Shown here: positions 23,671 to 53,723 of the stretch, piece by piece
Numbering within the stretch: position 1 is the first letter of the stretch
Layout: the number at the start of each line of letters is the position of its first letter
NCBI RefSeq assembly: GCF_000191885.1
Contig: NZ_AEWI01000024.1
Coordinates: 30,751-94,750, forward strand
Reading direction: 5' to 3'
Origin: Anaerophaga thermohalophila DSM 12881
Lineage (GTDB): Bacteria; Bacteroidota; Bacteroidia; Bacteroidales; Marinilabiliaceae
Length of the DNA: 64,000 bases
The notes under the pieces: model-generated
Told to the model about the DNA's origin: nothing
The model's input: the letters and a program-made list of their open reading frames with translations, nothing else
Databases searched by the model: none
Made by a program: the position numbers and the translations under genes

Positions 23671-23717
23671 AATGGATACTTCGTTTTTAGTGAGTATTGA
23701 TTTTAGGAGGAATTATT

Positions 23718-23860
23718 GAGTGCAGTCTAAAAAGCCTTTTGACCCCTAAATCCCCTAAAGGGGACTTTTTCAAACTGCTGATTTTTAGCAGTTCCCCTTT
23801 AGGGGTCAGGGGGTAAAAATGGTAAAAATCAGCAGTTTGAAGGCTTTTTATACTGCACTC
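23718..23860. mobile_element. Family A element with a different core (143 bp)
   Basis: Both ends carry the family A terminus: GAGTGCAGTCTAAAAAGCCTT and, inverted, AAGGCTTTTTATACTGCACTC. The flanks are the direct repeat ATTATT (23712-23717 and 23861-23866). The interior differs from other copies: it has long arms containing CCCCTAAAGGGG and TTTTTAGCAG, making the whole element nearly palindromic. The right-hand duplication covers the yceI stop codon. Confidence 0.85.
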
Positions 23861-23861
23861 A

Positions 23862-24437
23862 TTATTTTAATGTCAGATTAAAATTTATTGTTACTTCGTC
23901 GGCTGTCTTAATCGTTCCAAACATGACAGTGGGAGGTTCTACATCGAAATCAGTCATTTTTAGAGTTGTTTCACCCGATACAGAAACCTCCTTTTGAGGA
24001 CTGATATTTGCATTTAAGGCTATTTCGATGGGTTTGGTCTCGCCCGCAATGGTCAGGTTTCCGACAATGGTGTAATGTCCGTTCCGGTTGCCTGCTATTT
24101 CCAGGTTTCCGGTTTGTTCAAATTTTATTTCGGGATGTTTCTCCGCCTTTAAAGCCTCATGGGCTTTGTTTCTCATCATGGATTTTTCGCTTGACAAATC
24201 ATTGGCATTTGCAGAAAACCGGGCTTCTGAAATAATGTAACTGCCATTGTCCCTGTTTTCCAGTTGTGCAGTAGCATCAAACGTTGTCATATCCATTTCC
24301 CAGTCGTGCAGGGTTGAGGTACCGGATGCTTTTACGGAGTTATTATCTCCTGTGAGCTTTATGTTTTGACCGGTTAGAAGTTGTGGTACGATGAATAATG
24401 CCAGTATCAGCTCATTCTTTAATATTGATTTTATCAT
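23862..24437 (-). CDS. YceI-family protein (copy 1)
   Basis: The start chosen is the ATG at 24437 (191 residues), just before the signal peptide ('ELILALFIVPQLLTGQ'); an apparent extension to 24617 runs into a mobile element. The YceI signature is good: 'NSVKASGTSTLHDWEM', 'MRNKAHEALKAEKHPEIKFE', and 'NLTIAGETKPIEI' before a closing 'MTDFDVEPPTVMFG'. It probably binds a lipid-like ligand in the periplasm. It is the first gene of the YceI-porin-YceI-Rrf2 series. Its stop codon lies inside a mobile-element target duplication. Confidence 0.88.
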   Translation of the reverse strand: MIKSILKNELILALFIVPQLLTGQNIKLTGDNNSVKASGTSTLHDWEMDMTTFDATAQLENRDNGSYIISEARFSANANDLSSEKSMMRNKAHEALKAEKHPEIKFEQTGNLEIAGNRNGHYTIVGNLTIAGETKPIEIALNANISPQKEVSVSGETTLKMTDFDVEPPTVMFGTIKTADEVTINFNLTLK

Positions 24438-24580
24438 GTTCAAAAAGTTTTTAATATTAATCCTATCACAAAAGTAGCAAAAATTTAATGATACCAAAAC
24501 AGGGCTGATACTAAAAGATTTTTTTTCAAACGTTTCTTTAATAGTCGGTCTGTAAATCTTTTTATGGGTTTTTAGTTTAT

Positions 24581-24721
24581 GAGTGCAGTATAAAAAGCAT
24601 ATTTTTGTCAAAATCAAGGCGTTTTAAATTTTTGTACCGGAGTTAACTTGTTGTTAATGAGGATGCAAAAATTTAAAACAACAAAGAGTTTGGCAACAAA
24701 GATGCTTTTTAGATTGGGCTC
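24581..24721 (+). mobile_element. Family A MITE, full length (141 bp)
   Basis: It runs from GAGTGCAGTATAAAAAGCAT to GCTTTTTAGATTGGGCTC. The flanks are the direct repeat AGTTTAT (24574-24580 and 24722-24728). Internal arms pair GTTTTAAATTTTTG with CAAAAATTTAAAAC. It lies 140 bp upstream of the first YceI gene. I see nothing recognisable in the remaining spacer 24729-25023. Confidence 0.88.
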
Positions 24722-25023
24722 AGTTTATAAATGAGAAATATCCACGCCGAAAAGCACATGAAACGGGCATGACAATGATTGACATAATGGATCGTCAGAT
24801 TTTCAGATAATAGTAACCTATAGACAGAAGTTTAACAGGCAGAAGTAATAAATTTTGTTGAAAAGGATTTTTCAGCTTATAGTGAAAGGATTTATATTGC
24901 TTTGTCGTCAGGGAGGACAGATTGTAAGATGAGAGAAGGAAAATTTCCACACGACAAAGCAGGTAACACACTTAAGTATCTGGATTACAATTTTTTTGTT
25001 TTGCGCAAGATTAACAAAAAAAG

Positions 25024-25962
25024 TCAAATTCCCGGCGGGAACAACTCCATCAGGGGCTGAAGAATATTGGGGGTTTGCTGCAGGTGCACCGGGGGAACAA
25101 TAACTTTAAGAGCAAGTGGTAATATTTGAATATGAGCTTCTTTGCCCAAATGGACGGGTTCGCCATCGACATGCCCGAGCAACGGCTTGTCGTGTTGTAT
25201 GGTGATGTCGCGTGCTTTTATTATTTTGTCGTATTTGCTTTTATCGATAGATTGGTCAACAAGGCTGATCAGCAGAGCTGGTGCTGTATATTTCGGAAAA
25301 TCTTTGATGAGACAAACATCGATGAGACCATCGTCGATAAGTGCACCGGGGGCAATATGAAAATTATTTCCATACTGACTTGAATTGGCAAAACTGATGA
25401 GGAACGCGTTAACATCAATTTTGTGACGATCAATGTCCAGAGAATAATTTTCCGATTTGTATTTGGGAAACTCTTTGGAAATTAATTGCATATAAGCCAG
25501 TGGGCCCCGTTTTTTTTTGCCGGCAAATTTATGACTGATATAGGCATCAAAGCCAATGCCGGCAACATTCAGTGAGAAAAACTCATTAATTTTGATGACA
25601 TCAATGGATTTGACAGCGCCCTCCCGTATTACTTCGAGCGCTTTGTTGACCTTGAAAGGCATTTGAAGAAAACGCGCCAGTCCGTTACCTGAACCGGTGG
25701 GGATAATTCCGAGGGCTGTAGAGGAATGAATCAGGCCACGACCTACCTCGTTGACGGTTCCGTCACCACCAACGGCAACTACAATATCATATTTTCCTGC
25801 GGCGTCTGCGCTTATTTTAAATGCATCTCCGGATTTCCCTGAGTATGCAATTTCAAAATTCAAACCTGAAGGCTTTGTTTCCTGCCTCAGTACTTTCTCA
25901 ATGTCCTTCTGCCGGCCAATACCCGACACAGGGTTTATGATATATAAAACACTTCTGCTCAT
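25024..25962 (-). CDS. Diacylglycerol/lipid kinase family protein (YegS/DgkB-like)
   Basis: This 312-residue protein has the DAGK-catalytic signatures GGDGT at 65-69 followed by 'VNEVGRGL', and 'PTGSGNGLAR' at 88-97. A C-terminal beta-sandwich with 'GHVDGEP' completes the NAD-kinase-like fold. It should phosphorylate diacylglycerol or another lipid at the inner face of the membrane. It is transcribed away from the PAP2 phosphatase gene, which could act on phosphatidate-type products. The in vivo substrate is unknown. Confidence 0.9.
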   Translation of the reverse strand: MSRSVLYIINPVSGIGRQKDIEKVLRQETKPSGLNFEIAYSGKSGDAFKISADAAGKYDIVVAVGGDGTVNEVGRGLIHSSTALGIIPTGSGNGLARFLQMPFKVNKALEVIREGAVKSIDVIKINEFFSLNVAGIGFDAYISHKFAGKKKRGPLAYMQLISKEFPKYKSENYSLDIDRHKIDVNAFLISFANSSQYGNNFHIAPGALIDDGLIDVCLIKDFPKYTAPALLISLVDQSIDKSKYDKIIKARDITIQHDKPLLGHVDGEPVHLGKEAHIQILPLALKVIVPPVHLQQTPNILQPLMELFPPGI

Positions 25963-26133
25963 CCTCCTCGGTTATTTAAAAACATGTAAAGTTACACATA
26001 TATTTTTTGCAGCGATATATTTTGCCGACTTTAGGGACAGACCCTGATTAACTCTTTAGCTGTAGATGTGAGGGCACATTAGTGCTTCAAATTGTAAAAT
26101 TTTTATTTTCTTTGAAGAAAAAACCATGAAGCC

Positions 26134-26826
26134 ATGGAAACGTTAATACAACTCGATCAGGAATTATTATTATATCTCAACTCATTTACATCACCGCTAT
26201 TCGATAACTTTTTCTGGGTGGTGACCAGCAAAAGTATCTGGTTCCCGATGTATGCCTTCTTCCTTTATGTCATATTCCGTAACCAGGGGGTTAAGGGAAT
26301 TATTACTGTTCTTGCCCTGGCATTGATGGTATTACTCTGCGATCAGATTTCTACAAATATTTTTAAAGAAGGTTTTGAACGTCTTCGTCCGTCACACGAT
26401 CCGTCAATCCAGGGACTGGTTGACCTGATAAACGGGAAACGTGGCGGGAAATATGGTTTTGTATCGTCGCATGCTACCAACTCTTTTGGTCTTGCAGTTT
26501 TTTCTATATTGCTGTTCAGATATCGCTGGTATACTGTTTTTATTCTTTTTTGGGCTGCATTGAACAGTTATTCCAGGATATATATGGGTGTTCATTATCC
26601 CGGCGACATCCTGGGTGGAATGATTCTTGGGTCTCTCATCGGTTGGTTTGTTTACTGGCTGTATAAAAAGGTTTCGGCACGTTTTTCTCCTGGCAGTGAG
26701 GCTATATATCCGCTTTCAAAGCATCAGGATTTTTCGGTTGCTTCGGTTCAGACCATTATTATATCCGGAATCCTCACGATTATCGTTGTCTATATTTCTT
26801 CGGTTTTATTGCTTGATCTTATGTAG
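26134..26826 (+). CDS. PAP2-superfamily membrane phosphatase
   Basis: This 230-residue protein has several membrane segments and all three acid-phosphatase motifs: K78 with R85-P86 ('KEGFERLRP'), S111-S112-H113 ('SSHATNSFG'), and S147-R148 with H154 and D158 ('SRIYMGVHYPGD'). Such enzymes dephosphorylate phosphatidic acid, phosphatidylglycerophosphate or undecaprenyl diphosphate. The size and an extra C-terminal TM fit an undecaprenyl-PP phosphatase or lipid phosphatase, which sequence alone cannot separate. Confidence 0.9.
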   Translation: METLIQLDQELLLYLNSFTSPLFDNFFWVVTSKSIWFPMYAFFLYVIFRNQGVKGIITVLALALMVLLCDQISTNIFKEGFERLRPSHDPSIQGLVDLINGKRGGKYGFVSSHATNSFGLAVFSILLFRYRWYTVFILFWAALNSYSRIYMGVHYPGDILGGMILGSLIGWFVYWLYKKVSARFSPGSEAIYPLSKHQDFSVASVQTIIISGILTIIVVYISSVLLLDLM

Positions 26827-26976
26827 CCGGAGTTTAGCCTTTCGTAATTTCTAATCTACTGACAAACAGTATATTATCGGTGGTTATTCATGTAGAAGTA
26901 TAATAATTGTTAAAACCTATAGTTTTGTTGTTAATTCTGTTTTAAATCTGTGGTTTTTTCATTATTTTTATATCAC

Positions 26977-27380
26977 ATGAGTGCGGTATACAAAGCATAT
27001 TTTTGTCAAAATCAACGTGTTTTAAATTTTTGTACCGGAGTTGACTCGTTGTTAATGAGAATTCATCCGTATAAAATTTATTATTAAGGTCGGATGGAAC
27101 TCGCATGCAAGAACTAATACATGTTCTTATTGTGGCAAATTTTACCATGCTCGTTTCATCTTACATTTAATAAGTTGTTACGGCTGTTAGAATTGTTAAA
27201 GTTGTTAATATTGTTTAGGTATTAGTATTTAGAATGTTATAAGTTTTATTACATTAGTTAACAATCTATCGATCCTAACAATTTAATGATCTATCTATGG
27301 CAAATCTTGTCATGTTCGTTTCAAAAATTTAAAACAACAATGAGTTTGGCAACAAAGATGCTTTTTATAGCGGGCTTGTC
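26977..27380 (+). mobile_element. Family A MITE split by inserted repeat DNA
   Basis: The left part (26980-27060) runs from GAGTGCGGTATACAAAGCAT to GTTGTTAATGAG. The right part resumes near 27329 with AAAAATTTAAAACAAC and ends with GATGCTTTTTATAGCGGGCTT. About 265 bp between them include one complete family B repeat. The outer ends are more diverged than in other copies. Confidence 0.75.
27062..27160 (-). repeat. Family B repeat, complete, nested in a MITE
   Basis: The unit runs from TTCATCCGTATAAAATTTAT through GGATGGAACTCGCATGCAAG and ATGTTCTTATTGTGG to CATGCTCGTTTCATC. It interrupts the family A element around it. Confidence 0.85.
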
Positions 27381-27411
27381 ATATCAATAACCTCAAAAAA
27401 CTTTTTCAGTT

Positions 27412-27681
27412 ATGAGTACAACGATAACATTTAATCAGCTCCGGAGGATAAAGGATAGTCTTCCGGAGGGAAGCATGAGATGCATCGCCGAAACGTTAAA
27501 CCTCGACGTAGAAACAGTGAGAAATTATTTCGGAGGGGCCAACTACGATCGGGGTAAAAGCATAGGAATTCACCTGGAACAAGGCCCGGATGGAGGAATT
27601 GTTGAATTGGACGACACCACCATTCTCGACATGGCCAGGGAAATTTTAGAAGGAAGAAGGGAAGTGCACATGACAAATTAA
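27412..27681 (+). CDS. Small putative DNA-binding protein (hypothetical)
   Basis: This 89-residue protein has a probable helix-turn-helix at about 18-42 ('SMRCIAETLNLDVETVRNYF') followed by a 'GGANYDRGKSIGIHLEQGPDGG' segment and a C-terminal helix. Proteins of this size and layout are widespread in Bacteroidota but have no assigned role that I know. Two hairpins follow the gene, so it is a monocistronic unit. The ATG has only a weak A-rich upstream region, normal for the phylum. Confidence 0.7.
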   Translation: MSTTITFNQLRRIKDSLPEGSMRCIAETLNLDVETVRNYFGGANYDRGKSIGIHLEQGPDGGIVELDDTTILDMAREILEGRREVHMTN

Positions 27682-27688
27682 TTTGACG

Positions 27689-27767
27689 CCTTACCATATC
27701 TGGTAGGGTTTTATTATAATATGTTGAACCATAAGGGTGTTTTCGGGTCAGGAAACACCCTTTTTTT
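27689..27767 (+). terminator. Two hairpins terminating the small DNA-binding gene
   Basis: The first stem is CCTTACCA/TGGTAGGG (27689-27708) followed by TTTTATT. The second, stronger stem is AAGGGTGTTT/AAACACCCTT (27733-27762) followed by T-rich sequence. Confidence 0.8.
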
Positions 27768-27775
27768 AAGTAAGC

Positions 27776-27949
27776 AGGATAATTCGATGGTTGTTTTCGG
27801 AGATGGTTGTTCTTGCAGCGAATGCAGGTGGCGCCTGGTCACCTATGGGTGATGTGACTACTATATACCGGCAGGAGAGTTTCTCTCTGTCAAGAAAACA
27901 AATGCTGACTTTGTCTTTGCCTTCAAATATTGATTCCGGTATGAAATGA
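27776..27949 (+). pseudogene. Remnant of an nhaD-type Na+/H+ antiporter gene
   Basis: One forward frame reads 'EMVVLAANAGGAWSPMGDVT', which is the highly conserved NhaD core (consensus AANAGGAWSPIGDVTTTMLW). The frame then degrades and stops at 27949. No start codon or flanking coding sequence remains, so it is a short relic. It lies directly after the terminator of the small DNA-binding gene, and a composite repeat follows about 60 bp later. Confidence 0.65.
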
Positions 27950-28006
27950 CCGTGCTTTTGATGATTTCGCAATGCTGGCAACGACATTTTTGAACGGAGA
28001 TACATA

Positions 28007-28397
28007 TTGAAACGAGCATGACAACGTTTTGCCACAATCAGAACATGTATAACACCATTTAACCTCTAATCATCTAAGAAACCAAAAACAGAGAACAGAT
28101 TCTTCGTCGTGCCTCCTCAGAATGACATTTGACAGTCTGTCATTCTGAGCGGATCGAAGAATCTAAAAAAGCAAACAAATTAAAATGTGATTTTTATTGA
28201 TGTCAATAAAAATAATCTGTGTTCATTTGTGGCATCTGTGGTGAACTCTCAACCTCAACCTCAGCCTCAACCTCAGCCTCAACCTCAACCTTAACCTTAG
28301 CTGCCTGTCATTCTGAGCGGAGCGAAGAATCTAAAATCAATTAAAGCATAATAAGTTGCATCATTCCAATAACTTAGACTTATTTTATACTGATGAA
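28007..28397. repeat. Long composite inverted repeat, left copy (about 391 bp)
   Basis: Its ends are the two halves of the family B unit (AACGAGCATGACAACG at left, ACTTATTTTATACTGATGAA at right). Between them lie the paired motifs GATTCTTCG and TGTCATTCTGAG, and a hexamer array at 28249-28299. The reverse complement of the whole segment recurs at 36855-37303 with high similarity outside the array. It contains no gene. Confidence 0.85.
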
Positions 28398-28408
28398 AAA
28401 GGGGGAGA

Positions 28409-29170
28409 TTATAGCTTGGCACTGATTAGTTTATGACGCTCTTCTTCGGGCAGTTCCCTGACTTTTTTCCTTGTATTTTCCAGCTTTTCAGGTGTGCCGA
28501 TATCAAACCAGATGTCATTTTTTGTTTCATAACCTTTTATAATATGTTCCGATCCCAGCCTCAGATAAAGCTGCATGATCGGGAATACACCCCTTTCCCT
28601 GATAAGGTTAAAAATTTCCGGGCTGACGATGTGCACTCCCTGGAACCCGAAAGGCAGGGTGGGGGAGGCAGACCGTATCATTATTTTTTCACCTGTTTTG
28701 GTGTTTTCCCGTCCGCAGAGTATCATGTTTTTATCAAAGAGCAAATATCTTGAAGTTGGCCGGTCTTTAACCATTAATGATACCAATGGCTTTTCTTCTT
28801 CGTGGAAACGCATGAACGAATTGAGATCGGTTGAGGTAATGATATCGACGTTGTACAGTACCACAGGAGTATTGGCATCGAACAGGCTTCGGGCTTTGAG
28901 CAGTCCGCCACCGGTATCAAGCAACTGGTCTTTTTCGTCTGAAATTAATATTTCCATTCCCGAAGTTTTGTAATTGTTCAGGAAATCGACAACCTGCCGG
29001 TGATGATGATGGATATTCACAACGGTTTTTGTGATGCCTGCGTTTTCAAGTTTTTTTAAAGCGATTTCGAGCATGGTGAACCCGTTTATTTCGACGAGTG
29101 CTTTGGGCTTGTTATTGGTCAGCGGTCGAAGGCGGGAGCCAAGGCCGGCTGCGAATATCATTGCGTTCAT
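28409..29170 (-). CDS. Sugar-1-phosphate nucleotidyltransferase (MurU-like)
   Basis: This 253-residue protein has the nucleotidyltransferase signature 'AAGLGSRLRPLTNNKPKALV' at 7-26, followed by 'TVVNIHHHHRQVVDFL' and 'DTGGGLLKA'. The length fits small MurU/RfbA-like enzymes. An AmgK-like kinase is encoded in the same direction on the far side of the Mrp genes. MurNAc-1-phosphate uridylyltransferase is therefore the most likely role, completing UDP-MurNAc formation in cell-wall recycling. Mannose-1-phosphate or glucose-1-phosphate specificity is not excluded. Confidence 0.78.
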   Translation of the reverse strand: MNAMIFAAGLGSRLRPLTNNKPKALVEINGFTMLEIALKKLENAGITKTVVNIHHHHRQVVDFLNNYKTSGMEILISDEKDQLLDTGGGLLKARSLFDANTPVVLYNVDIITSTDLNSFMRFHEEEKPLVSLMVKDRPTSRYLLFDKNMILCGRENTKTGEKIMIRSASPTLPFGFQGVHIVSPEIFNLIRERGVFPIMQLYLRLGSEHIIKGYETKNDIWFDIGTPEKLENTRKKVRELPEEERHKLISAKL

Positions 29171-29264
29171 GTGCTTAGAGTTGGTTTCTGAGTTTTCCGT
29201 TTTGGGCTACGTGTTTCGTGTTTTGCGTTTCGTGTTTTGGGCTACGTATATCCTGAAGCGTCAG

Positions 29265-29389
29265 CCTTATCCTTATCCTTATCCTTATCCTTATCCTTAT
29301 CCTTATCCTTATCCTTATCCTTATCCTTATCCTTATCCTTAACCTCAACCTTATCCTTAACCTCAGCCTCAGCCTCAGCCTCAACCTCA
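29265..29389 (-). repeat. GGATAA-type hexanucleotide array
   Basis: About 21 hexamers, mostly CCTTAT on the plus strand and then CCTCAA/CCTCAG variants, lie between mrpG and the murU-like start codon. The array begins 94 bp upstream of that ATG. Confidence 0.95.
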
Positions 29390-29424
29390 ATTGATCACTG
29401 ATAATTGATAAATGTGCTAATCCT

Positions 29425-29736
29425 TCATTCCGCTTCGTCAGTCGTTCCGGGGATACCGATGCTGCGTGCTGCCCGGGCAATAACATGGGCGGCAACGGGA
29501 GAGAGGAACACCAGAACACCAAAAATGATGGCCGATTCGAACAAAACAAACCAGTCGCGGAACAGCAGGTTGACCCCGATCAGCAAAAGCAATAGTCCCA
29601 GTGATGATACTTTGGTGACTACGTGCATTCTGGCATAAAGGTTTTTAAAACGCCATATTCCAATGGAGGCAATAAGTACCACCAGGGAGCTGAACAGCAT
29701 AATAATGCCTGCTATTATATCTATTATATCTGTCAT
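29425..29736 (-). CDS. mrpG: Mrp Na+/H+ antiporter subunit G
   Basis: This 103-residue protein has three TM segments and the MnhG/PhaG pattern ('GIWRFKNLYARMHVVTKVSSLG' region and 'PVAAHVIARAA'). It is the last subunit of a complete A-B-C-D-E-F-G cluster. Its start overlaps the mrpF stop by 4 bp. Confidence 0.92.
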   Translation of the reverse strand: MTDIIDIIAGIIMLFSSLVVLIASIGIWRFKNLYARMHVVTKVSSLGLLLLLIGVNLLFRDWFVLFESAIIFGVLVFLSPVAAHVIARAARSIGIPGTTDEAE

Positions 29737-30020
29737 CGTTCTTTGTTTTGTTTGTATAAATACCTTGCAATGATCATAGAACCAAAGGCCAGAATGAAAG
29801 CGATCACCAAAACCACATCGAGGAGTAGTTTTTCACGAGTGTAAATCACATCACATATCATCATCCCGACAATGATAACGCCTATCTGGTCAAGGGCTAC
29901 CACCCGGTCGGGAAGTGACGGCCCCTTAAACAGCCGGAAGAGCGGAAAAATCAGGCTGAGCGAAAAAATGTACAATGCGGTCAGTGCTGTGTATTCCAGA
30001 AAAACAGATGAGTTTTCCAT
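29733..30020 (-). CDS. mrpF: Mrp Na+/H+ antiporter subunit F
   Basis: This 95-residue, three-TM protein has the MnhF pattern ('LFKGPSLPDRVVALDQIGVI'). It overlaps mrpG by 4 bp and follows mrpE by 2 bp. The Mrp complex exchanges Na+ for H+ across the inner membrane. Confidence 0.92.
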   Translation of the reverse strand: MENSSVFLEYTALTALYIFSLSLIFPLFRLFKGPSLPDRVVALDQIGVIIVGMMICDVIYTREKLLLDVVLVIAFILAFGSMIIARYLYKQNKER

Positions 30021-30022
30021 TG

Positions 30023-30340
30023 TTAAAAAGCTTTATAGAGTAAACGTTCAATCTTTCCGGTTACTGCCAGGAAGTTATCCCGGTCGCTGCGGTTGAGCAG
30101 GTGTACAAGTATGGTGTCATTTTCTTCATTGATATCAATACTCATTGAGCCGGGTGTCATGCTGATAAGGTTGAACAACATGACCACTCTCCAACCTTTT
30201 TTGAGTGATGTATGGTATTTGATGAGTATGCCTTTGTCGCCCCGGCTGCCACGAGCTATTTGTATCGCAATGGCCAGACCCGATTCCGTTACTTTATAGG
30301 CATAGTAGATGAAGAAATAAAGAAAATATAACGGCTTCAT
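30023..30340 (-). CDS. mrpE: Mrp Na+/H+ antiporter subunit E (short form)
   Basis: This 105-residue protein has the MnhE core ('LISMTPGSMSIDI...DTILVHLL'). It is shorter than the roughly 160-residue Bacillus MrpE, lacking most of its N-terminal membrane part. A 111-bp spacer of octamer repeats separates it from mrpD, the only sizeable gap in the operon. Its assignment is secure from context. Confidence 0.88.
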   Translation of the reverse strand: MKPLYFLYFFIYYAYKVTESGLAIAIQIARGSRGDKGILIKYHTSLKKGWRVVMLFNLISMTPGSMSIDINEENDTILVHLLNRSDRDNFLAVTGKIERLLYKAF

Positions 30341-30344
30341 TGGG

Positions 30345-30406
30345 TAGATTGTTAGATTGTTAGATTGTTAGACTGTTAGGTTGTTAGGCTGTTAGATTGT
30401 TAGATG
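30345..30406 (+). repeat. GTTAGATT octamer array inside the mrp operon
   Basis: About seven tandem octamers with small variations lie immediately upstream of the mrpE start codon (30340). They interrupt the otherwise tight mrp operon between mrpD and mrpE. Confidence 0.85.
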
Positions 30407-30451
30407 TTATAATATTCATTTGGTCCTTTGTAAAAGCCATTAAATCAATGC

Positions 30452-31954
30452 TTAATTTAGTACAAAATCAATATACAATTGTGGGTTCATCAGGCTTTCG
30501 GCTGCCAGGGTGCAATATTCGACGATGGGTGTGGCAAACACACCGCCCAAAATAATGATAAGGGCCATTCCTCCCGAAGACCATGTCATCCAGGCTGAAC
30601 TATGTTTTAGATCAGCCTCGTAGGTTAGTTTTCTTTGTTTTATTTTTTTATTTTCAGGTTCGGCCTTCCAGAACACTTCCATCCAGATTTTGACCATTGA
30701 AAACAATGTAAAAAAACCGACAAAAAGCGCAACAAGAGCAATGCCCATATATTTGGCTTCAATTCCGGCTTTAATCAGCAGGTATTTTCCGATGAAACCA
30801 CTCAGGGGAGGTAACCCGGCCAGGCTGAAGGCCGAAATAAAGAAAAACGCTGCCCAGAGCGGGTGTTCTTTGTAGAAATTACCCAGTGTTTTCAGGTTAA
30901 GGGTTCCTTTCCGGGTATGCACGTAACCTGCTACCAGGAAGGCATTGGTTTTGGATATCATGTTATGGGCCAGGAAATAGATGGCTCCTGCCAGTCCTGC
31001 CACAGTAAAAAGGCCGAGTCCCATCACTGCGTAACCCACCTGGCTGATGATGTGAAACGACAGTATTTTGCGGAAATCGAACTGCGATGTGGCGGTAATG
31101 ACTCCTATCACCATGCTTAGTCCTGCGACCCATAAAATCAAAGGCTGCCAGAAATCGTTGTGCTGATGCAAAAAGAGCGTGTAGAATCTGATGAGCGAAT
31201 AGATGCCTACTTTGGTAAGTAATCCGGCAAACAAGGCTGTTACTACGGGTGGAGGGGTATGATACGATGCAGGAAGCCAGAAGAAGAAAGGCACCAGTGC
31301 CCCTTTTATGGCAAAGCCCACGAATATCAGTATGAATGAAGGATTGATCTCGGGTGGCATGGTATCAAATTCCATTAGTTTGGCGGCAATATCGGCCATA
31401 TTAAGAGTCCCAAGCTTGCCGTAAAGTAATCCAATGCCGGCCACAAAAAAGAAGGATGATATGAGATTGAGGATAAGATATTTGACCGAACCTTCGAGCT
31501 GGTTACGTTCCCCGCCATGGCTCATTAGGATAAAGGAGGCCATGAGCATGACTTCGAACCACACATAGAGGTTAAAGACATCGCCGGCCAGAAAGCTGCC
31601 GTTGACACCCATCAGTATACCGAAGGCAAAAAGATAAAAGCCGAAACTTTTGCGTTTGACGTCGAGGGCATGCACCGAAAAGGCCATGGTTGCCAGAAAG
31701 ACAATGGCAGCCACCAGCACCATCATGGCACTGAAACGATCGGCCACCAGTGTTATTCCGTATGGCGCCGGCCAATTGCCCATCTGAACCTTTAGCATTC
31801 CTGCACTCCCGGTTTCCAGAACCAGGATAACTGAAACTGCTAAATTAAGAGCGGCTGCTCCTACTGCTACATATTCCCGCCCGTGAAAGTGGCGGAAAAG
31901 AAAAGCAAAGATCATAAATGCCATCGGCAGAAAAACGGGTAACGATACTATCAT
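30452..31954 (-). CDS. mrpD: Mrp Na+/H+ antiporter subunit D
   Basis: This 500-residue, about 14-TM protein is homologous to the complex I antiporter-like subunits NuoM/NuoN. The conserved TM segments carry 'FVGFAIKGALVPFFFWLPAS' and 'HNMISKTNAFLVAG', the lysine-bearing helices of the proton path. It overlaps mrpC by 4 bp. The complete Mrp gene set marks it as Mrp rather than NADH dehydrogenase. Confidence 0.95.
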   Translation of the reverse strand: MIVSLPVFLPMAFMIFAFLFRHFHGREYVAVGAAALNLAVSVILVLETGSAGMLKVQMGNWPAPYGITLVADRFSAMMVLVAAIVFLATMAFSVHALDVKRKSFGFYLFAFGILMGVNGSFLAGDVFNLYVWFEVMLMASFILMSHGGERNQLEGSVKYLILNLISSFFFVAGIGLLYGKLGTLNMADIAAKLMEFDTMPPEINPSFILIFVGFAIKGALVPFFFWLPASYHTPPPVVTALFAGLLTKVGIYSLIRFYTLFLHQHNDFWQPLILWVAGLSMVIGVITATSQFDFRKILSFHIISQVGYAVMGLGLFTVAGLAGAIYFLAHNMISKTNAFLVAGYVHTRKGTLNLKTLGNFYKEHPLWAAFFFISAFSLAGLPPLSGFIGKYLLIKAGIEAKYMGIALVALFVGFFTLFSMVKIWMEVFWKAEPENKKIKQRKLTYEADLKHSSAWMTWSSGGMALIIILGGVFATPIVEYCTLAAESLMNPQLYIDFVLN

Positions 31955-32304: not shown

Positions 32305-32305
32305 T

Positions 32306-36854: not shown

Positions 36855-37303
36855 TTTTCATCAGTATAAAATTAGTCTAAGTTATTGGAATGATGCAATT
36901 TATTATGCTTTAATTGATTTTAGATTCTTCGCTCCGCTCAGAATGACAGGCAGCTAAGGTTAAGGTTGAGGCTAAGGTTAAGGTTAAGGTTGAGGCTAAG
37001 GTTAAGGTTAAGGTTGAGGCTAAGGCTAAGGTTAAGGTTGAGGTTGAGGCTGAGAGTTCAGCCACAGGTTGACGTTCAGAGTTCAACACAGATTATTTTT
37101 ATTAACATCAATAAAAATCACATTTTAGTCTGTTTGCTTTTTTTAAATTCTCCCCCTTCGTCAGAATGACAAAGGGCCTCTTGTCATTCTGAGGAGGTAA
37201 CCACGAAGAATCTGTTCCCTGTTTTTGGTTTCTTTGATGATTAGAGGTTAAATGGTGTTATACATGTTCTGTTGTGGAAAAACGTTGTCATGCTTTTTTC
37301 ATC
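36855..37303. repeat. Long composite inverted repeat, right copy (about 449 bp)
   Basis: This is the reverse complement of 28007-28397, including the family B halves at each end, the GATTCTTCGCTCCGCTCAG and TTGTCATTCTGAGG motifs, and a longer GGTTAA/GGCTAA hexamer array (36955-37052). Length differs mainly in the array. It lies upstream of the AmgK-RapZ gene, whose promoter may be inside or just after it. Confidence 0.85.
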
Positions 37304-38462: not shown

Positions 38463-38496
38463 GAGTGCGGTATAAAAAGCATATTTTTGTCAAATT
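38463..38496 (+). mobile_element. Left-end fragment of a family A element
   Basis: The left terminus (GAGTGCGGTATAAAAAGCAT, then ATTTTTGTC) is present but the rest is missing. The remaining 38497-38673 is A/T-rich leader for the next gene. Confidence 0.7.
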
Positions 38497-42117: not shown

Positions 42118-42118
42118 C

Positions 42119-42166: not shown

Positions 42167-42181
42167 TGATGATTGTTTTTC

Positions 42182-43405: not shown

Positions 43406-43425
43406 ATAATGCCGATTTAATTTAG

Positions 43426-43874: not shown

Positions 43875-43975
43875 TTCATCAGTATAAATTAACTATAAGT
43901 TATTGGTCTGATGGAACTCGCATGCAAGCATTTATACATATTCTTGTTGTGGAAAACCTTGCCATGCTCGTTTCG
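43875..43975 (-). repeat. Family B repeat, complete
   Basis: It runs from TTCATCAGTATAAATTAAC through CTGATGGAACTCGCATGCAAG to CTTGCCATGCTCGTTTCG. A loose fragment of the same family lies at about 43734-43756. The rest of 43600-44297 shows no coding sequence. Confidence 0.85.
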
Positions 43976-44297: not shown

Positions 44298-44347
44298 GTA
44301 GGAAGGTAGGAAGGTAGGAAGGTAGAAAGGTAGAAAGGTAGAACGGT
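44298..44347 (+). repeat. GGTAGGAA octamer array
   Basis: About six octamer units (GGTAGGAA, then GGTAGAAA variants) lie in the spacer after the TonB receptor stop codon. Downstream, 44400-44480 holds a duplicated GCTCGGCTCTGCCGCTT with AAGAATCTG ends, and 44489-44510 a short CCTCAA hexamer run. Confidence 0.85.
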
Positions 44348-44517
44348 TAAATGGTGAGTCTGCAGTAATGAGACTGGGAAATAGAGATGTTTGTCATTTC
44401 TGTGTTCGCTCGGCTCTGCCGCTTTGCCTGTAAAGAATCTGTGTCGCTCGGCTCTGCCGCTTGCTTGCAAGAATCTGGGGTGCCTCTCAACCTCAACCTT
44501 AGTCTCTGCCTTTTTTC

Positions 44518-46932: not shown

Positions 46933-46964
46933 ACGGCAACGGGACTCCTTATTTCTTTCAAACG

Positions 46965-46972
46965 CAAAAATA
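46965..46972 (-). promoter_or_regulatory. -7 box of the TonB receptor promoter
   Basis: TATTTTTG on the minus strand fits TAnnTTTG and places the start about 26 nt before the ATG. The region where the -33 box should be (about 46992-46996) is degenerate hexamer repeat, without a TTTG. Confidence 0.55.
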
Positions 46973-47000
46973 GGGAAAATATTGAGGAGAATGAGAATGA

Positions 47001-47112
47001 GGTTAAGGTTAAGGTTAAGGTTAAGGTTAAGGTTAAGGTTAAGGTTGAGGTTAAGGTTGAGGATGAGGTTGAGGTTGAGGATGAGGTTAAGGTTAAGGAT
47101 GAGGTTGAGGTT
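47001..47112 (+). repeat. GGTTAA/GGTTGA hexanucleotide array upstream of the TonB receptor
   Basis: About 18 hexamers (GGTTAA, then mixed GGTTGA, GGATGA and GGTTAA) are preceded by a degenerate GAGAAT stretch from 46984. The array sits directly upstream of the receptor promoter. No gene is present in 47113-47537, which carries a partial family B end (about 47203-47230) and A/T-rich leader. Confidence 0.95.
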
Positions 47113-47537
47113 GCCGTTTAATGATTTGCAACCGGGGATATTATTTCACGCTGAAACGGGTTTTCGGGGTGAGCTCCTCAAGCAGAATGAGTTGAGCTCT
47201 TAAGGCAATCTTTGTCATGCTCGTTTCATTGGCAAGTGTTTGAAATAGTTTAACGGACTATTGGTTTAACATGCAGATTTTCAAAATTGTAAGATTCATT
47301 TTAGACTGGGCTCATCTATAAAAATCTGATAGTCTATTGAATAATGTTGCATACCAGAAATATTATTAATAACTTGAATTCGTTTTTATTGTTTGAATAC
47401 CAGTTGTTTGTTTTTTGCCTTACGAGCAATAAATGTCATTATTTTGTAAAACGGGCATGGAATGACTCAGATTAATACATATTCTCTATTTATTAACAAG
47501 TTTAATTTCAGTTATCTAATCAAAAAACAAAGCTTTT

Positions 47538-48119
47538 ATGAAAAAACAAGCGATTACTTTAGGACGAATTGGTATTTTGTTGCCGATTGCAGTAATAATA
47601 CCAATCATTAACATGTTTGTTGGCATAGCGGTCATCGTTCTTCTTCTGATGTCGCACAATTATTTTTCCAAAGTTTATGAAAAGCCGCTTATTTTTAAAA
47701 AGGCCCTGACCGGTACTATCATTGAAATTGTTGCCAATATTGTTGGCTGGATTATTTTTGTGATTGCAATTGGTTCTGCGGCTTTAAGTATGTCATCCGG
47801 CGGTGAAGTAGAACCCGTCAACTTTCAGAAAATAACGAGTGTTCTTTTTGAAAGCGCTGCGACGATTATCGGGGGCATCATAATACTTGCGGGTTTAATT
47901 ATCGGTTTTTACTTCATCTGGCAGGGCTTGAAGCTGTTGGCAGAACAAACCGGAGTGAAACTTTTTAATACTGCAGGGTTGCTATATTTTATTGGTGCAA
48001 TTGGAATCATTGTTTTTGGTCTGGGTATCATTGTGATCTTTGCTGCGTGGATTGTACATATTGTGGCTTACTTTACAGTGCAGCCTGATGAAAAACCAGC
48101 CGAAGCAACAACCGCATAA
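47538..48119 (+). CDS. Predicted membrane protein, DUF996-like
   Basis: This 193-residue protein has four or five TM segments in two Gly/Ile/Val-rich blocks ('GIAVIVLLLMSHNYFSKVY', 'IIGGIIILAGLIIGFYFIW', 'LYFIGAIGIIVFGLGIIVIF'). The layout resembles DUF996, a family described mainly from archaea. Function is unknown. A polar C-terminal tail ('QPDEKPAEATTA') follows. No partner gene is close. Confidence 0.65.
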   Translation: MKKQAITLGRIGILLPIAVIIPIINMFVGIAVIVLLLMSHNYFSKVYEKPLIFKKALTGTIIEIVANIVGWIIFVIAIGSAALSMSSGGEVEPVNFQKITSVLFESAATIIGGIIILAGLIIGFYFIWQGLKLLAEQTGVKLFNTAGLLYFIGAIGIIVFGLGIIVIFAAWIVHIVAYFTVQPDEKPAEATTA

Positions 48120-48265
48120 ACAGAAATATACCTGTGTTGTCTCATTTTATAGATGACATGACAATAGCGGTGAAATTAAGCAGGGGTGTCACAAAAGTTA
48201 ATGACAGACACTAAATTATCTTTAAGGACATTATCTTTAAGGACATCCCCTTTTTAAGTGTTCAC

Positions 48266-48650
48266 TCACTCTTCAGTATATTCGTTCAGTTCAATATAAG
48301 ATGTCTCTCCGTCATCTATAGTAACATCGGTCATCAATGGCAATGGCAGATCAAAATTTATGCAGCTCTTTCATTCTGCCGTTCCATCAAAGTCATCACC
48401 CTGCAATGTGGTTTCAATAACGTATCCTTCATAGCCGGCATATTCCGGTTCCTGTAACAACGGATGAAACGAGCATGGCAAAGTTTGCCACAATAAGAAT
48501 ATGTATAAATTCTTGCATGCGAATTCCATTCGACCAATAACTTAGATTAATTTTATACTGATGAAAGCGTGTTACCGTCGGCTTCATAGCTCCAGTTAGA
48601 CCGGGTTTCTTTAGTTTTATAAAACTTTAACAAACCTTTGACACCCTTTA
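48266..48650 (-). pseudogene. Decayed gene split by a family B repeat
   Basis: Read leftward, an upstream stretch ('KGLLKFYKTKETRSNWSYEA') is followed by a family B element (48463-48566). A downstream stretch in another frame then reads 'EPEYAGYEGYVIETTLQGDD', has one in-frame TGA at 48371-48373, and continues 'MTDVTIDDGETSYIELNEYT' to a stop at 48266-48268. No start codon remains. The two halves look like parts of one acidic protein, but I do not recognise it. Confidence 0.5.
48463..48566 (+). repeat. Family B repeat, complete (104 bp), inside a pseudogene
   Basis: It runs from GATGAAACGAGCATGGCAAA through AATATGTATAAATTCTTGCATGCG to TTTTATACTGATGAAA. The hairpins TGGCAAA/TTTGCCA and AAGAAT/ATTCTT are intact. 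Confidence 0.9.
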
Positions 48651-48756
48651 ATCATTGCGGTATTACATTTGTTGCGTTAAAAATCACGGGGTTAGACCCG
48701 ATAATTATTTGGGTTTTATAAGGGTAAAAAACGCCGGAATAAAGATTAAAAGAAGA

Positions 48757-50025
48757 ATGAGATACCATTTGATTTTTTTGTGGGTGTTAGTCTTGTTGGT
48801 AGGAGGGATTGACTGGTTACTTTGGAGGTTTTGGAAGAAGGGGGAGCCTTTGCAGGGATTTCGTAAATGGTTTGCTGTTACAGGATTTATCATATTTCCC
48901 ATTGTTTTTTTAGCCGGATTTTTTGCTTTTGGATTACTTATACGGGATGTCGAAAGTTATCATGTATATAATGCATTTGGTATCTTTCTGACCGTTTTTC
49001 TTTTGATTTATCTGCCTAAATTCGTCTTTATTCTGGTTCAGGGGATCGGAAGAGTACAAAAGGTGTTGCCCCGCAGACCAACTCCGCAACGCAAAAGGCA
49101 TTATCCTCCCATATCGCGTGCCAGGTTTCTCAGTCAGGTTGGCATCATTATGGCTACCGCGCCGGTTGTCGGGTTGTTGTTTGGTGTTTTTAAGGGACGT
49201 TTTGCTTTTTATACCCGTCATGTCAACCTTTCATTTCCCAATTTTCCAGGGGCATTCGACGGTTTAAGGATCGTTCAGATATCGGATTTGCACCTCGGTA
49301 GTTTTGGAACCAACCGTGAACCTTTGCGTGAGGCGGTGCAACTCATTAACGACGAGAAGCCGGATATGGTGTTTTTTACCGGCGATCTGGTCAACAATTT
49401 TGCCGGGGAAACAAGGGGGTGGGAAGATATTTTAGGAAAAATAAATGCGCCATTGGGTAAATATGCCATTTTGGGAAATCATGATTACGGCGATTATAGC
49501 TCATGGCCAACAGAACAGCGCAAGGCTGCTAATTTCAAAGGCATCGTTTCGGCATTTCGACGATTTGGATTTCAGCTTTTAAGGAACGAATCTGTCACTA
49601 TTGAGAAGGATGGACAACACTTTGTTATAAGTGGCGTAGAAAATTGGGGCCATCCGCCTTTCCCCCAATATGGCGATTTGGAAAAAGCCTGGAGTGAGGC
49701 CGGAAATGTGCCTTTTAAAATTTTACTTTCTCACGACCCTGATCACTGGGATGCAGAAGTAGTTGGGAAAAAAGACTACGATCTGACTATGGCTGGACAT
49801 ACCCACGGAATGCAGTTTGGTGTTGAAGTGGGTAAATTTAACTGGAGTCCGGCAAAGTATAGGTTCAAGCGATGGGCAGGCCTTTATCGCGAAGGCAATC
49901 AGTTTCTTTATGTAAACCGGGGACTTGGCTATCTGGGTATGCCAGCCCGTGTTGGAATGCCTCCGGAGATAACTGTCTTTGAGTTACATCGTGGGGGACA
50001 ATTCACTGCTGATAAACAGAAATGA
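48757..50025 (+). CDS. Calcineurin-like metallophosphoesterase (membrane-anchored)
   Basis: I chose the ATG at 48757 (422 residues), which directly precedes a hydrophobic segment; an upstream TTG at 48655 adds an unlikely polar leader. Three or four N-terminal TM segments (to about 145) are followed by the phosphoesterase domain with 'QISDLHLG' (D177, H179), 'FFTGDLVN', 'GNHDYGD', 'LLSHDPDHW' and 'AGHTHG'. The build matches YkuE-like proteins. Its TGA stop is partly made by an inserted family A element; the ancestral sequence would have read TAA at the same place. Confidence 0.9.
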   Translation: MRYHLIFLWVLVLLVGGIDWLLWRFWKKGEPLQGFRKWFAVTGFIIFPIVFLAGFFAFGLLIRDVESYHVYNAFGIFLTVFLLIYLPKFVFILVQGIGRVQKVLPRRPTPQRKRHYPPISRARFLSQVGIIMATAPVVGLLFGVFKGRFAFYTRHVNLSFPNFPGAFDGLRIVQISDLHLGSFGTNREPLREAVQLINDEKPDMVFFTGDLVNNFAGETRGWEDILGKINAPLGKYAILGNHDYGDYSSWPTEQRKAANFKGIVSAFRRFGFQLLRNESVTIEKDGQHFVISGVENWGHPPFPQYGDLEKAWSEAGNVPFKILLSHDPDHWDAEVVGKKDYDLTMAGHTHGMQFGVEVGKFNWSPAKYRFKRWAGLYREGNQFLYVNRGLGYLGMPARVGMPPEITVFELHRGGQFTADKQK

Positions 50026-50080
50026 TTGCAGTATAAAAGGCATATTTTTGTCAAAATCAAGGCGTTTTTAGACTGGGCTC
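50024..50080 (+). mobile_element. Family A element with internal deletion (57 bp)
   Basis: It keeps both ends (GATTGCAGTATAAAAGGCAT and TTTTTAGACTGGGCTC) but lacks most of the core. The flanks are the direct repeat AGAAAT (50018-50023 and 50081-50086). Its first two bases complete the TGA stop of the phosphoesterase gene. Confidence 0.85.
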
Positions 50081-50103
50081 AGAAATAATAAGGAATATAT
50101 TTT

Positions 50104-53079
50104 TTATTTGTTGATCAGGAAGCTGTCGAAACTGGTGGAAAACACCACTTCATGAAAAAACGATCTGTCGGCATCGCGGTATCCGCCCCTGTATCCTATA
50201 CTAAAAGGCAGAACAAATCTGAATGCATGGAAATCGCTCATTAATTCAATGCCTTTTGATGTAAATGTATTTGTATAGTAATATGTCAATCCGGTTTCTT
50301 TTTCTTCGAGTTTGAATTTTGCCCGTGCAGCATCAAAAAACAGATTAAGGCGAAACCGTTTGATATAAATTAATCCGGGCAACGACCAGTCGGGATTCCA
50401 AAGCGGCATTTGGTAGGTTCCGTTAAAAACGTACATATTATCGTTCGTAATATATTCATACCCGCGGGGCAGATCGAGCAAGTCGCCGAATTTTTGATAC
50501 ATCCGGTATGGTAAATTTGTGTCAATTTCTTCACCGTTAATTTTATTTTGCCACTCGTTGTCAATGCGTATGGCATGATGTTGTCCGATTCCGGGAAAAT
50601 AAAGCCGGCTGCTGATGCCGTAAACCTTTCCGGCATTGTAATTTCCCCAGGGTGTATGCCTGAAAATGAAACTGAAACTTTGGCCCCATCGTGTATTGAC
50701 ATCGCGTGCTGTTCCTCTGAGTTTATTATGAAAATAGGCGGAGTACTCCATTCCCCAGTAGTCAATATCCGGAATATAAATCATATTGTTTTCTCCGGTT
50801 TCAATCAGGTTTCCATTGTTGCCAATTATAAAAAACGATTGTTCATAATTACGATTGCTAATATTTTGCCATGACAAGCGGCTTTCGAATTGAAGCAAAC
50901 GGCGCCATTTCCCGATACTGAGATCGAGCGGAATACGTGTTCCTGCCTCCAGACTTATATGATTTTCTTTTCCTTGTTGTTCGAGAGTAAACAGGCGGGT
51001 TGTGCTTTCATACATATTATTCCCGAAGGATTCTTTATAGTCGCCCCATTTTAGATCAAAATCTATTATCGGAAACCATCCACGGTAGGTAAGGCCGATA
51101 TTGAACTTTTCACGACTTTTCGATTTTGCGGCATTGTATCCTGCCCGTGTTATCATAGTACCAAGGAGATTCTGGCTCATCAGTGACAGGCCAGGATAAA
51201 GACTCTGGTTGTCAATGTCAATGTATGCGGGGGCCCAGCTGTGAAGGTTTATCAGGTTCCATTTGCTGTAAGGTCTTATCCCGAAGGTATCGGGCTTATA
51301 GTTGGTTTGGATGCGGGGCTCCTGTATTTTGAGCTTTTTTACAAGGTCATTGGTCAAATCAGCCGGCTCTACGCCCTCTTTTACAGTTTGCCAGGCGGGT
51401 ATTTTTACAAGTTGATAGCCCGTTGGCGTATAATTCGAGTAAATAAGAGAATCTTTCCCTCTAAGAGAAGGGAAGGTGGCACCGAATCTTGACTGAGTCA
51501 GTTGTGACGTGATACCGGTTTTAATGTTGGTGCGGAAAATCTCCTCGGAATTTTGTGTTGATGCCGTATACCAGAAGTAATGATCTCTTTTTACAGGGTA
51601 TTTTGGTTCATCGAAGGCAGGCTTCCGAAGCGTTTCCCACTGGTTGGTTTTGGTGTTCAGGCTAACAATACTTTTCCCCGAATCGGAGAGGAGTACCAAC
51701 ACCAGTTCGTCTTTTTCATCACTCCATGAAGGATGCATCGGAAAAGCATTTCCGGGAGTCGGAATTCTTTTTATCGCTTTTCCCTTCCACATATCGATAA
51801 GGGTTATGAAAAATTGATAACCGGTTGTATTTTCTACCACAGCCATGGTGTCCGATCCGGTTTTTAAGGCGGGGGCGAAATAACGTGTTCGGGAGGTTAG
51901 TGTTGACGTTTGCTTTGTAAACCTGTCGTAAACTCTCACGATAGAATAATCTGCATTATTCCAGCGAATATGGGGAGTAAACTCTGTCCATGCTACCCAT
52001 CGCTCATTGGCGGTTATGGGATCACTGTTTCTGCTTCCTGTATAAGCAATTGTTTCTATATCTCCTGAAGATGAGATGTTCACGATACGGGTTCGCTGTC
52101 CAGGCCCGGTTATCTGGGCAAAAACGTCTCCCTGTTCAGTAACTACCGGATATTCGATGTTGGTATAGTCGTCATTTCCCCTGGCGATGAACGCGAAATC
52201 TGAAGTTTTGAGGGTGTCGTCGTAGTTTCTCCATGCTGTAGCAAGACTGTCAAAAACAGCATTGTAAAGCAGACGCTGATTGCGATAACCTGTTTTCCTG
52301 ATCGCTTCTCTGAAGGGGATAAGCGACCAGCTGTTTCGCCCCACATTGTCGATCACCTCTTCCCATATTTCAGCTCCATACCGTTGTCTGACCGCGGCCG
52401 TGAAGTGATAGCCCATTTTGTAGTAATCCGGCACAAATTCTTTGTATGAGCCAAGATAGGCTTTGTCGAAATCGTCATATCCATAGCGGGTCAGCCGTGC
52501 CTTGAGCGGCTGGCTGAACGCAGGCAACCTTCCACGGCCACTTTCCGAAAGTGTGGTTTCGGTGATGACGGCATCACCCTCCATAAACCACATGGGCAGG
52601 TAAGCACCAAGGACAGCTCCCGTGGCTTGCTCCCCTGTAAACCAGGATGCAACTTTTGTAAATCCCTGCCTGAGTTTATCGATCTGTACCACGTGACGAT
52701 ATTCGTGAATGGCCAGTTGTTTCAACCAATCGATTCCGTAGTTATTCTGATCGGGAGACGGATATAGCTCAATACGCCTGGGAGCCCATGATACAAAGCC
52801 ATTGGAAAAGGTGGAGCGTCCGTGTATTATTATATCTATTTTACGTGGTTTATGATTAAGCGAAGCCTCCACTCTGGGGGCAATACTGTCAAGAAAAAGA
52901 GCAAGCTCAGTGGCGGGTTCGGCAAATTCTTCGGGGAAAACCAGCCGGAATCGATCGGTGTTAATCTGTTTCCATTTTACGGAAGCAGGATCGGCTCCTG
53001 ATGTGTAATACTGAGCATTGGAGGTAATAGTGAAGAAAGCAAGAATGAAGATTAGTAATGTGAAAATATTTTTTTGCAT
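50104..53079 (-). CDS. Giant outer-membrane protein: HEXXH peptidase-like domain, beta-propeller and barrel
   Basis: From the ATG at 53079 the protein has 991 residues with a signal peptide to about 22. A peptidase-MA-like domain (about 25-230) has 'HEYRH' at 125-129 and a glutamate at about 167 in 'WFMEGDA', the gluzincin arrangement. A WD40/TolB-type propeller (about 290-570) follows, with repeated short strands around 'HPSWSDEKDELVLVLL'. The last 400 residues look like an outer-membrane barrel. Substrate and partners are unknown; a surface- or periplasm-facing peptidase is inference. Confidence 0.75.
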   Translation of the reverse strand: MQKNIFTLLIFILAFFTITSNAQYYTSGADPASVKWKQINTDRFRLVFPEEFAEPATELALFLDSIAPRVEASLNHKPRKIDIIIHGRSTFSNGFVSWAPRRIELYPSPDQNNYGIDWLKQLAIHEYRHVVQIDKLRQGFTKVASWFTGEQATGAVLGAYLPMWFMEGDAVITETTLSESGRGRLPAFSQPLKARLTRYGYDDFDKAYLGSYKEFVPDYYKMGYHFTAAVRQRYGAEIWEEVIDNVGRNSWSLIPFREAIRKTGYRNQRLLYNAVFDSLATAWRNYDDTLKTSDFAFIARGNDDYTNIEYPVVTEQGDVFAQITGPGQRTRIVNISSSGDIETIAYTGSRNSDPITANERWVAWTEFTPHIRWNNADYSIVRVYDRFTKQTSTLTSRTRYFAPALKTGSDTMAVVENTTGYQFFITLIDMWKGKAIKRIPTPGNAFPMHPSWSDEKDELVLVLLSDSGKSIVSLNTKTNQWETLRKPAFDEPKYPVKRDHYFWYTASTQNSEEIFRTNIKTGITSQLTQSRFGATFPSLRGKDSLIYSNYTPTGYQLVKIPAWQTVKEGVEPADLTNDLVKKLKIQEPRIQTNYKPDTFGIRPYSKWNLINLHSWAPAYIDIDNQSLYPGLSLMSQNLLGTMITRAGYNAAKSKSREKFNIGLTYRGWFPIIDFDLKWGDYKESFGNNMYESTTRLFTLEQQGKENHISLEAGTRIPLDLSIGKWRRLLQFESRLSWQNISNRNYEQSFFIIGNNGNLIETGENNMIYIPDIDYWGMEYSAYFHNKLRGTARDVNTRWGQSFSFIFRHTPWGNYNAGKVYGISSRLYFPGIGQHHAIRIDNEWQNKINGEEIDTNLPYRMYQKFGDLLDLPRGYEYITNDNMYVFNGTYQMPLWNPDWSLPGLIYIKRFRLNLFFDAARAKFKLEEKETGLTYYYTNTFTSKGIELMSDFHAFRFVLPFSIGYRGGYRDADRSFFHEVVFSTSFDSFLINK

Positions 53080-53169
53080 AACAGAGACATCTGGCATGTT
53101 ATTTTTAACCTCAAACCTCTGAGTTCTAATCTCAGCGTTCAGGTTTTTTTTAACAGACTATTAATCTGA

Positions 53170-53246
53170 CCTGCTTTAAATTTGTCTGCGATTGCTTGTG
53201 TTATCTGATATTTGAGCATCTCATGACGAAAGCTTATTGAAGCAGG
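53170..53246. repeat. Family D element, short copy
   Basis: CCTGCTT and AAGCAGG form the ends. The body is about 85% identical to one arm of 43426-43599 in inverted orientation (AAATTTGTCTGCGATTGCTTG, then CATCTCATGACGAAAG). Confidence 0.75.
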
Positions 53247-53258
53247 CTAACTATCTAT

Positions 53259-53399
53259 GAGTGCAGTATAAAAAAGCATATTTTTGTCAAAATCAAGACG
53301 TTTTAAATTTTTGTACCGGAGTTAACTTGTTGTTAATGAGGATGCAAAATTTAAAACAACAACGAGTTTGGCAACAAAGATGCTTTTTAGACCGGGCTC
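53259..53399 (+). mobile_element. Family A MITE, full length (141 bp)
   Basis: It runs from GAGTGCAGTATAAAAAAGCA to GATGCTTTTTAGACCGGGCTC. The flanks are the direct repeat ATCTAT (53253-53258 and 53400-53405). It is very close in sequence to the 24581 copy. Confidence 0.9.
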
Positions 53400-53723
53400 A
53401 TCTATATTTGCAAAAGTAATTGTTTTATTTAGAAGATAACTTCTGAAATGAAACAAGTCCCGATTACTCGGGATGAATTCCATCCGACCATAAAGAACGA
53501 CTTTACTTCAGGGGATACGATAAGCCGGAAATGAATAAAATGTTCCGGTTTCCTGCTTAAATAGCATTGAATGCAGGACTGGGATAGAAACTGGTGAAAA
53601 ATTCGGCATCAGTTTTTGAATTGGAATACAGTTATATATGGAAAGAGGAATAACGTCAAAGTGATTTTTGGTTTTTCCAAAACTTTTTTGTAAATTTTAA
53701 CGGGATCCATAAAAAATTAAGTT

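Follow-up and report, generated by a model that had tools for sequence, protein, structure and literature searches.

A MITE family with 6-7 bp target duplications in Anaerophaga thermohalophila and its likely IS1182-like parent

The genome of Anaerophaga thermohalophila DSM 12881 contains a family of MITEs that are non-coding, are bordered by duplications of the form ATNN(N)AT and, judging from sequence comparison, are very probably moved in trans by an IS1182-like DDE transposase with similar ends. The family is new, but of a known kind of element; no description of it was found in a search of mainly freely accessible literature. It was first predicted from a window of 64 kb, meaning the whole stretch of DNA analysed (C188:30751-94750, where the contig stops at 94750), and the claim of a MITE family with 6-7 bp target duplications proved genuine.

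The six copies named in the original prediction are all present in the window at their predicted positions, with their ends and 6-7 bp flanking repeats, and the 20-bp left and right ends are identical at 16 of 20 positions. Three are 141-bp members of sub-family A, located at 14316..14456 (reverse strand, target duplication ATTAAC), 24581..24721 (forward strand, the 7-bp AGTTTAT) and 53259..53399 (forward strand, ATCTAT), the last with one inserted base in its left end. An internal-deletion form of sub-family A, 57 bp long, lies at 50024..50080 (forward strand, AGAAAT). A remnant at 372..407 (reverse strand) consists of the right-hand 36 bp of sub-family A with AAAAGT on either side; it starts from a GAG in the interior of the sub-family A sequence and looks as if the enzyme may have used a cryptic end. 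The 143-bp copy at 23718..23860 (forward strand, ATTATT) had been regarded as a relative of the 141-bp copies; it has its ends in common with them, but its core differs and places it in a second sub-family, C. The predicted span of 23712-53405 is merely a bounding box around several copies and not one feature. Beyond these six, the window holds a 399-bp composite at 26979..27377 (forward strand), in which a family-B repeat lies within sub-family A, a lone left end of sub-family A whose remainder is lost (38463..38482, forward strand), single degenerate ends at 47294..47313 and 57078..57097 (both reverse strand) and the right end of a copy broken off by the contig end (63955..64000, forward strand).

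The target duplications were surveyed in 170 distinct end pairs lying 80-260 bp apart in this genome and in other Bacteroidales loci. An exact duplication borders 99 of them (89 of 6 bp and 10 of 7 bp) and a duplication with one mismatch a further 38; terminal inverted repeats are thus accompanied by an exact or one-mismatch duplication of 6-7 bp in 137 of 170 pairs, and 33 pairs have none. Among 101 exact pairs, repeated loci included, the duplication begins with A in 97 and finishes with T in 100. The target pattern is ATNNAT or ATNNNAT, duplicated mostly over 6 bp and sometimes over 7. A duplication of only 4 bp, with the bordering T...A belonging to the element, is disfavoured because odd border bases are themselves duplicated on both flanks: in the 99 pairs T/T occurs four times at position 1, and C/C and A/A once each at position 6, with 5 and 5 discordant cases.

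Comparison with the closest genome, that of a sister species (G001), reveals insertion differences. Its contig C105 is collinear with window positions 12728-27765 in blocks of 86-95% identity and is missing both the 143-bp copy at 23718, where it has a single ATTATT, and the 399-bp copy at 26979, where it has a single ATCACAT; the right-hand duplicate of the latter in the window has since been altered at two bases. The copy at 53259 is missing from contig C229 of the sister, where GTCTAT stands in place of the window's two ATCTAT repeats. Reciprocally, a copy found only in the sister (C105 6980-7122, flanked by ATAGCT and ATAACT) faces just ATAACA near window position 19309. At 14316 and 24581 the sister locus has been rearranged. 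At 50024 the sister's contig C229 opens with the final two bases of the element; the sequence suggests that the 57-bp form may be common to both species. Insertion polymorphism with empty sites is therefore found for three window copies and one sister-only copy, and because the three empty sites match the pre-insertion sequence predicted for them, conserved structure without polymorphism, the outcome that would have spoken against transposition, is excluded. Copies of the two species are also separated by diagnostic bases: the nearest neighbour is in the same species for 93% of 100 copies (73 own, 27 sister), a value that reached at most 74% in 500 label shuffles. This comparison shows that the MITEs multiplied separately in the two species.

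These insertion differences contradict the idea that the repeats are structured RNAs or REP-like palindromes that are retained because they serve the cell and that did not multiply by transposition. The copies folded from the window are imperfect palindromes along their full length, and the folds of four sequences are far more stable than those of shuffled sequences (z of -5.5 to -8.9). In sub-family A, 208 changes fall in 31 unpaired columns as against 232 single changes in 110 paired ones, and one strand is the better RNA folder in 73 of 73 copies (mean -45.5 versus -34.7 kcal/mol), copies which are not independent of one another. However, strand-preserving wobble changes show no clear excess (72 versus 53 in sub-family A, 18 versus 27 in sub-family C), neither strand folds better in sub-family C (13 of 26), and the target duplications and empty sites speak against such a role as the explanation. 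That the repeats are of this kind is thus exceedingly improbable; they may have a secondary RNA role besides transposition.

The original prediction had proposed a genome-wide search for the 20-bp termini, and, with two mismatches allowed, this returned 386 matches in forward and 396 in reverse orientation (782 in all) in the 4.32-Mb genome, as against 0 forward and 0 reverse matches for a reversed-pattern control. The MITE ends are thus commoner than chance in their own genome. Three contigs (C199, C211 and C188; 591 kb) contain 44 full copies of 135-146 bp, or about 7.4 per 100 kb, which extrapolates to about 320 in the genome. Not one of the 44 falls within an ORF of at least 100 aa, although such ORFs cover 80-82% of the three contigs. 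According to a simple ORF caller, 26 of the 44 occupy co-directional gaps, 16 divergent and 2 convergent ones; as raw counts, all gaps of at least 30 bp on these contigs number 198 co-directional, 62 divergent and 45 convergent. Of 92 paired elements in the initial 767 kb of sequence examined, 53 measure 141 bp and 77 measure 140-143 bp, so the predicted full length of exactly 141 bp holds for those 53. The elements are short (under about 500 bp) and carry no transposase gene, and the longest end pair in that stretch, of 901 bp, was rejected as a parent, being two separate copies flanking an ordinary gene; a pair 2750 bp apart likewise appears to be two copies around a gene.

In the stretches of the own genome that were examined, 99 full copies of 137-146 bp divide into 73 of sub-family A (consensus 141 bp, mean identity 95.5%) and 26 of sub-family C (consensus 142 bp, mean identity 97.2%), which have their ends, but not their cores, in common. 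Copies of 236-473 bp contain at least one family-B unit, always at one place in sub-family A, and such composites seem to move as a unit because some have target duplications of their own (for example C199:82916 and C4:4555). Family B itself is a hairpin repeat of about 100 bp (TTCATCAGTATAAAATT...GATGGAACTCGCATG...CATGCTCGTTTCAT) that occurs free, arrayed or within sub-family A at that place; in the window its units lie at 10577-10664, 15960-16024, 27088-27160, 36857-36898, 43875-43974, 48463-48566, 54241-54303 and 56889-57067. Degenerate 6-bp tandem arrays of the TTAAGG, CCTTAT and CCTCAA types also occupy intergenic positions of the window (36943-37066, 46998-47121 and 29241-29396).

The claim that the transposase must be encoded elsewhere is supported by the small size of the elements, which leaves no room for such a gene, and by the discovery of a likely parent IS in a relative. 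Ends were listed in full for six genomes. In G135, of the same order as the window genome, 19 end matches with a terminal AAAAAC lie close to the edge of a contig. Of these 19 contigs, 16 break off after 45-54 bp of one or other of two identical end sequences, as expected where a long, nearly identical repeat disrupts an assembly. Of the other three, C79 reaches 310 bp inside, in C26 a MITE end intervenes after 40 bp and C233 holds a diverged copy. On C79 an ATG 151 bp from the IS end opens a frame reading MFKANNQPELF..., and a protein search with its 53 residues retrieved 52 proteins, of which 49 have lengths of 548-609 aa; among the proteins retrieved, P0001 (561 aa) is identical at 53 of 53 residues. 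At the opposite end the inward reading gives the residues NIAFIRA followed by a stop codon at 28 bp from the terminus, which is exactly how P0001 finishes, and the diverged copy preserves 25 C-terminal residues at 80% identity. We infer that both ends, although on different contigs, belong to one IS, for which arithmetic from the separate contigs implies a length of about 1.86 kb.

Independently of G135, two other genomes have a similar end ahead of a related transposase start. G457 carries the end GAGTCCAGTATAAAAAG at a distance of 233 bp upstream of MFKPNNEPGLFSFEKEL at a contig end; in G127 a stretch of 405 bp between two such ends (one of them poor, with no target duplication) retains the first codons, MFKPNIQSELFSFDR, the remainder being gone, and looks like a MITE in the making. 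All three proteins scanned (P0001, P0021 and P0040) match PF05598 and PF13751 above the curated cut-offs, and their best NCBIfam match is IS1182 (NF033551) at 111, 104 and 138 bits; because these scores are below the cut-off of 270, the parent is named IS1182-like and not a member of IS1182. Residues D155, D348 and E469, which we take to be the catalytic triad of the transposase, are invariant in 16 aligned proteins. The ends of the G135 IS (GAGTTCAGT and GAGTCCGGT) agree with those of the MITEs, whose sub-family A consensus is GAGTGCAGT and GAGCCCGGT, at just 14-15 of 17 positions. Left/right polarity of the ends is a weak argument, because opposite ends pair A with G at position 7 in just 31 of 103 own pairs and 31 of 62 pairs elsewhere.

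The original prediction recognised no known IS by these ends and proposed a search for a full-length IS sharing them. That search yielded the likely, IS1182-like parent in G135, with its ends on separate contigs, and none in the own assembly, so that ends in common with a likely autonomous element were found in other genomes and not in the same one. A profile search that also recognises P0001 (50 bits) detected no parent in the own genome, just decayed ISNCY pieces on C82, and no relative turned up in the examined stretches of the own genome, which make up less than a third of it. The own-genome parent appears to have been lost or to lie in an assembly gap. P0001 has just distant relatives, of less than 60% identity, in plasmids and phages, and no relative was found in viral_contigs. 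The IS1182-like transposase would bind the 17-20 bp ends and join the element to a target cut with a stagger of 6-7 bp, the gaps then being filled by host repair to give the 6-7 bp duplications; the MITEs may have arisen by internal deletion of such an IS and later acquired other cores.

That no IS1182-like parent was detected in the own genome is also compatible with a mover from another transposase family (ISNCY, IS256 or an IS5-type), in which case the likeness to IS1182-like ends would be convergence. The MITE end and an IS256 end of G104 (GACACTGTCCTAAAAAG) match at 12 of 17 positions, counted by eye, and ISNCY fragments adjoin MITE ends in G135. Each candidate was nevertheless rejected as the parent. 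ISNCY_1 elements have their own distinct terminal repeats (TAGTGYCT..AAGAAAACT) despite the MITE ends beside two G135 fragments, which because of this difference probably lie inside MITEs. The IS256 copies of the own genome have different ends, as do its 8 PF01609 matches, and IS256 is present in just 3 of 10 genomes with MITEs. Moreover, the IS256 family generates duplications of 8-9 bp, as compared with 6-7 bp for the MITEs. A mover from one of these families is accordingly improbable. One decayed ISNCY_1-type element, about 1857 bp long with ends ACTATTTAGT..TGCAAGAAAACT, lies at 465-2321 of L254 (G000 C82).

The parent may be gone from this genome, leaving a fossil family whose members no longer move there, and this has somewhat less than an even chance of being so. 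No parent was found in searches of the own assembly, mean divergence from the consensus is 4.5% in sub-family A and 2.8% in sub-family C, and among the 44 full copies of the 591 kb the target duplication has one mismatch in 9 and is unrecognisable in 8. However, the copies closest to their consensus match it at 99.3% (A) and 100% (C) of positions, and a repeated IS can drop out of a draft assembly, as in G135.

The leaders of two of the related transposase genes contain a further motif. An exact match to TGTTNCACGTGNAACA, which we take to be the parS (ParB-site) consensus, lies in both the G457 leader, 151 bp in from the IS end and 82 bp upstream of the start codon, and the G127 leader, where the distances are 148 and 80 bp; the two belong to two bacterial families (L409, G457 C370, position 4891; L408, G127 C1, position 4759). 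A third is situated 77 bp upstream of the start codon of an IS1182-like gene that is more distantly related (L258, G199 C128, position 800). Of the 52 proteins, 5 have an N-terminal extension starting M[FL]HV[KE] 27 codons upstream; the extended proteins P0039 and P0046 fit an exact parS there, and the other three fit one with one or two changed end bases. In the 2.62 Mb examined, overlapping loci included, there are four distinct parS sites, three of them those of G457, G127 and L258. The leader of G135 contains no parS, and among 28 testable ORFs of 33 transposase loci an exact site was found at L258 alone, the next best having three mismatches. The motif is common in viral contigs, where an IS1182-like transposase accompanied it in none of 120 stretches listed. 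It is conceivable, though rather unlikely, that the parent represents a new IS1182-like group with a candidate chromosome-partition site, through which host ParB would regulate or steer the IS and tie transposition to segregation.

Several described systems resemble the present one in part. In Methanosarcina acetivorans, non-coding MITEs of 160 and 169 bp, in 14 and 7 copies, are assigned to an IS1182-family partner, ISMac2 (PMC3852290); these differ in their archaeal host and far lower copy number, and are compared here by description and not by end sequence. MITECca01 of Cardinium, linked to IS982 (PMC9769881), and BrickBuilt, MITE239 and MITE464 of P. gingivalis, with IS5-type ends (PMC4596501), are Bacteroidota MITEs with the ends of known IS, but the ends and IS families differ from those here, and BrickBuilt duplications are irregular or absent, unlike the 6-7 bp seen here. 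Correia and ERIC elements, with more than 120 and up to 711 copies per genome (PMC10969869), are also short palindromic mobile repeats at high copy, in unrelated hosts, and are likened by description and not by sequence. IS1272, of the IS1182 family, is reported without a target duplication (PMC5678879), which contrasts with the 6-7 bp duplications of the MITEs and counts against an IS1182-like parent; the same text assigns the family the same transposase type and says that some members target palindromes, and ATNN(N)AT is a short palindrome.

In a wider survey, matching ends with at most one mismatch were detected in 5 of the 71 genomes from the taxonomic family and in 23 of the 393 genomes sampled from the order. 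Named genomes contain at least 82 stretches with such ends; most of those listed are from Bacteroidales (Anaerophaga, Marinilabilia, Draconibacterium-labelled MAGs and others), and a few are single matches outside that order. In the 80 listed stretches examined the nearest end pairs are mostly 85-201 bp apart, the longest 437 bp, many with the same kind of target duplication; among the 82 listed no long end pair with a duplication was convincing, the spacings being too short for a transposase gene. The viral_contigs yielded one short element with such ends and no transposase between them, a 131-bp element with a 6-bp duplication, TTTAAT, at 3297-3427 of L341, an IMG/VR contig classed as viral. 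In plasmids no relative of a whole MITE was found; the core of the 143-bp copy (window 23742-23819) has a 76.5% match over 55% of the query on plasmid NZ_CP087141.1 of Spirosoma sp. KNUC1025, where core-like matches occupy four places with no annotated feature.

Thus, an orphan MITE family is now linked to a likely parent. Because its ends occur in 23 of the 393 sampled genomes of the order, the system may be widespread in Bacteroidales, where, so far unnamed, it breaks assemblies and fills intergenic regions. If the candidate parS site works, a link between segregation and transposition becomes testable, and, if that link is true, bursts of MITEs would also be tied to chromosome segregation.
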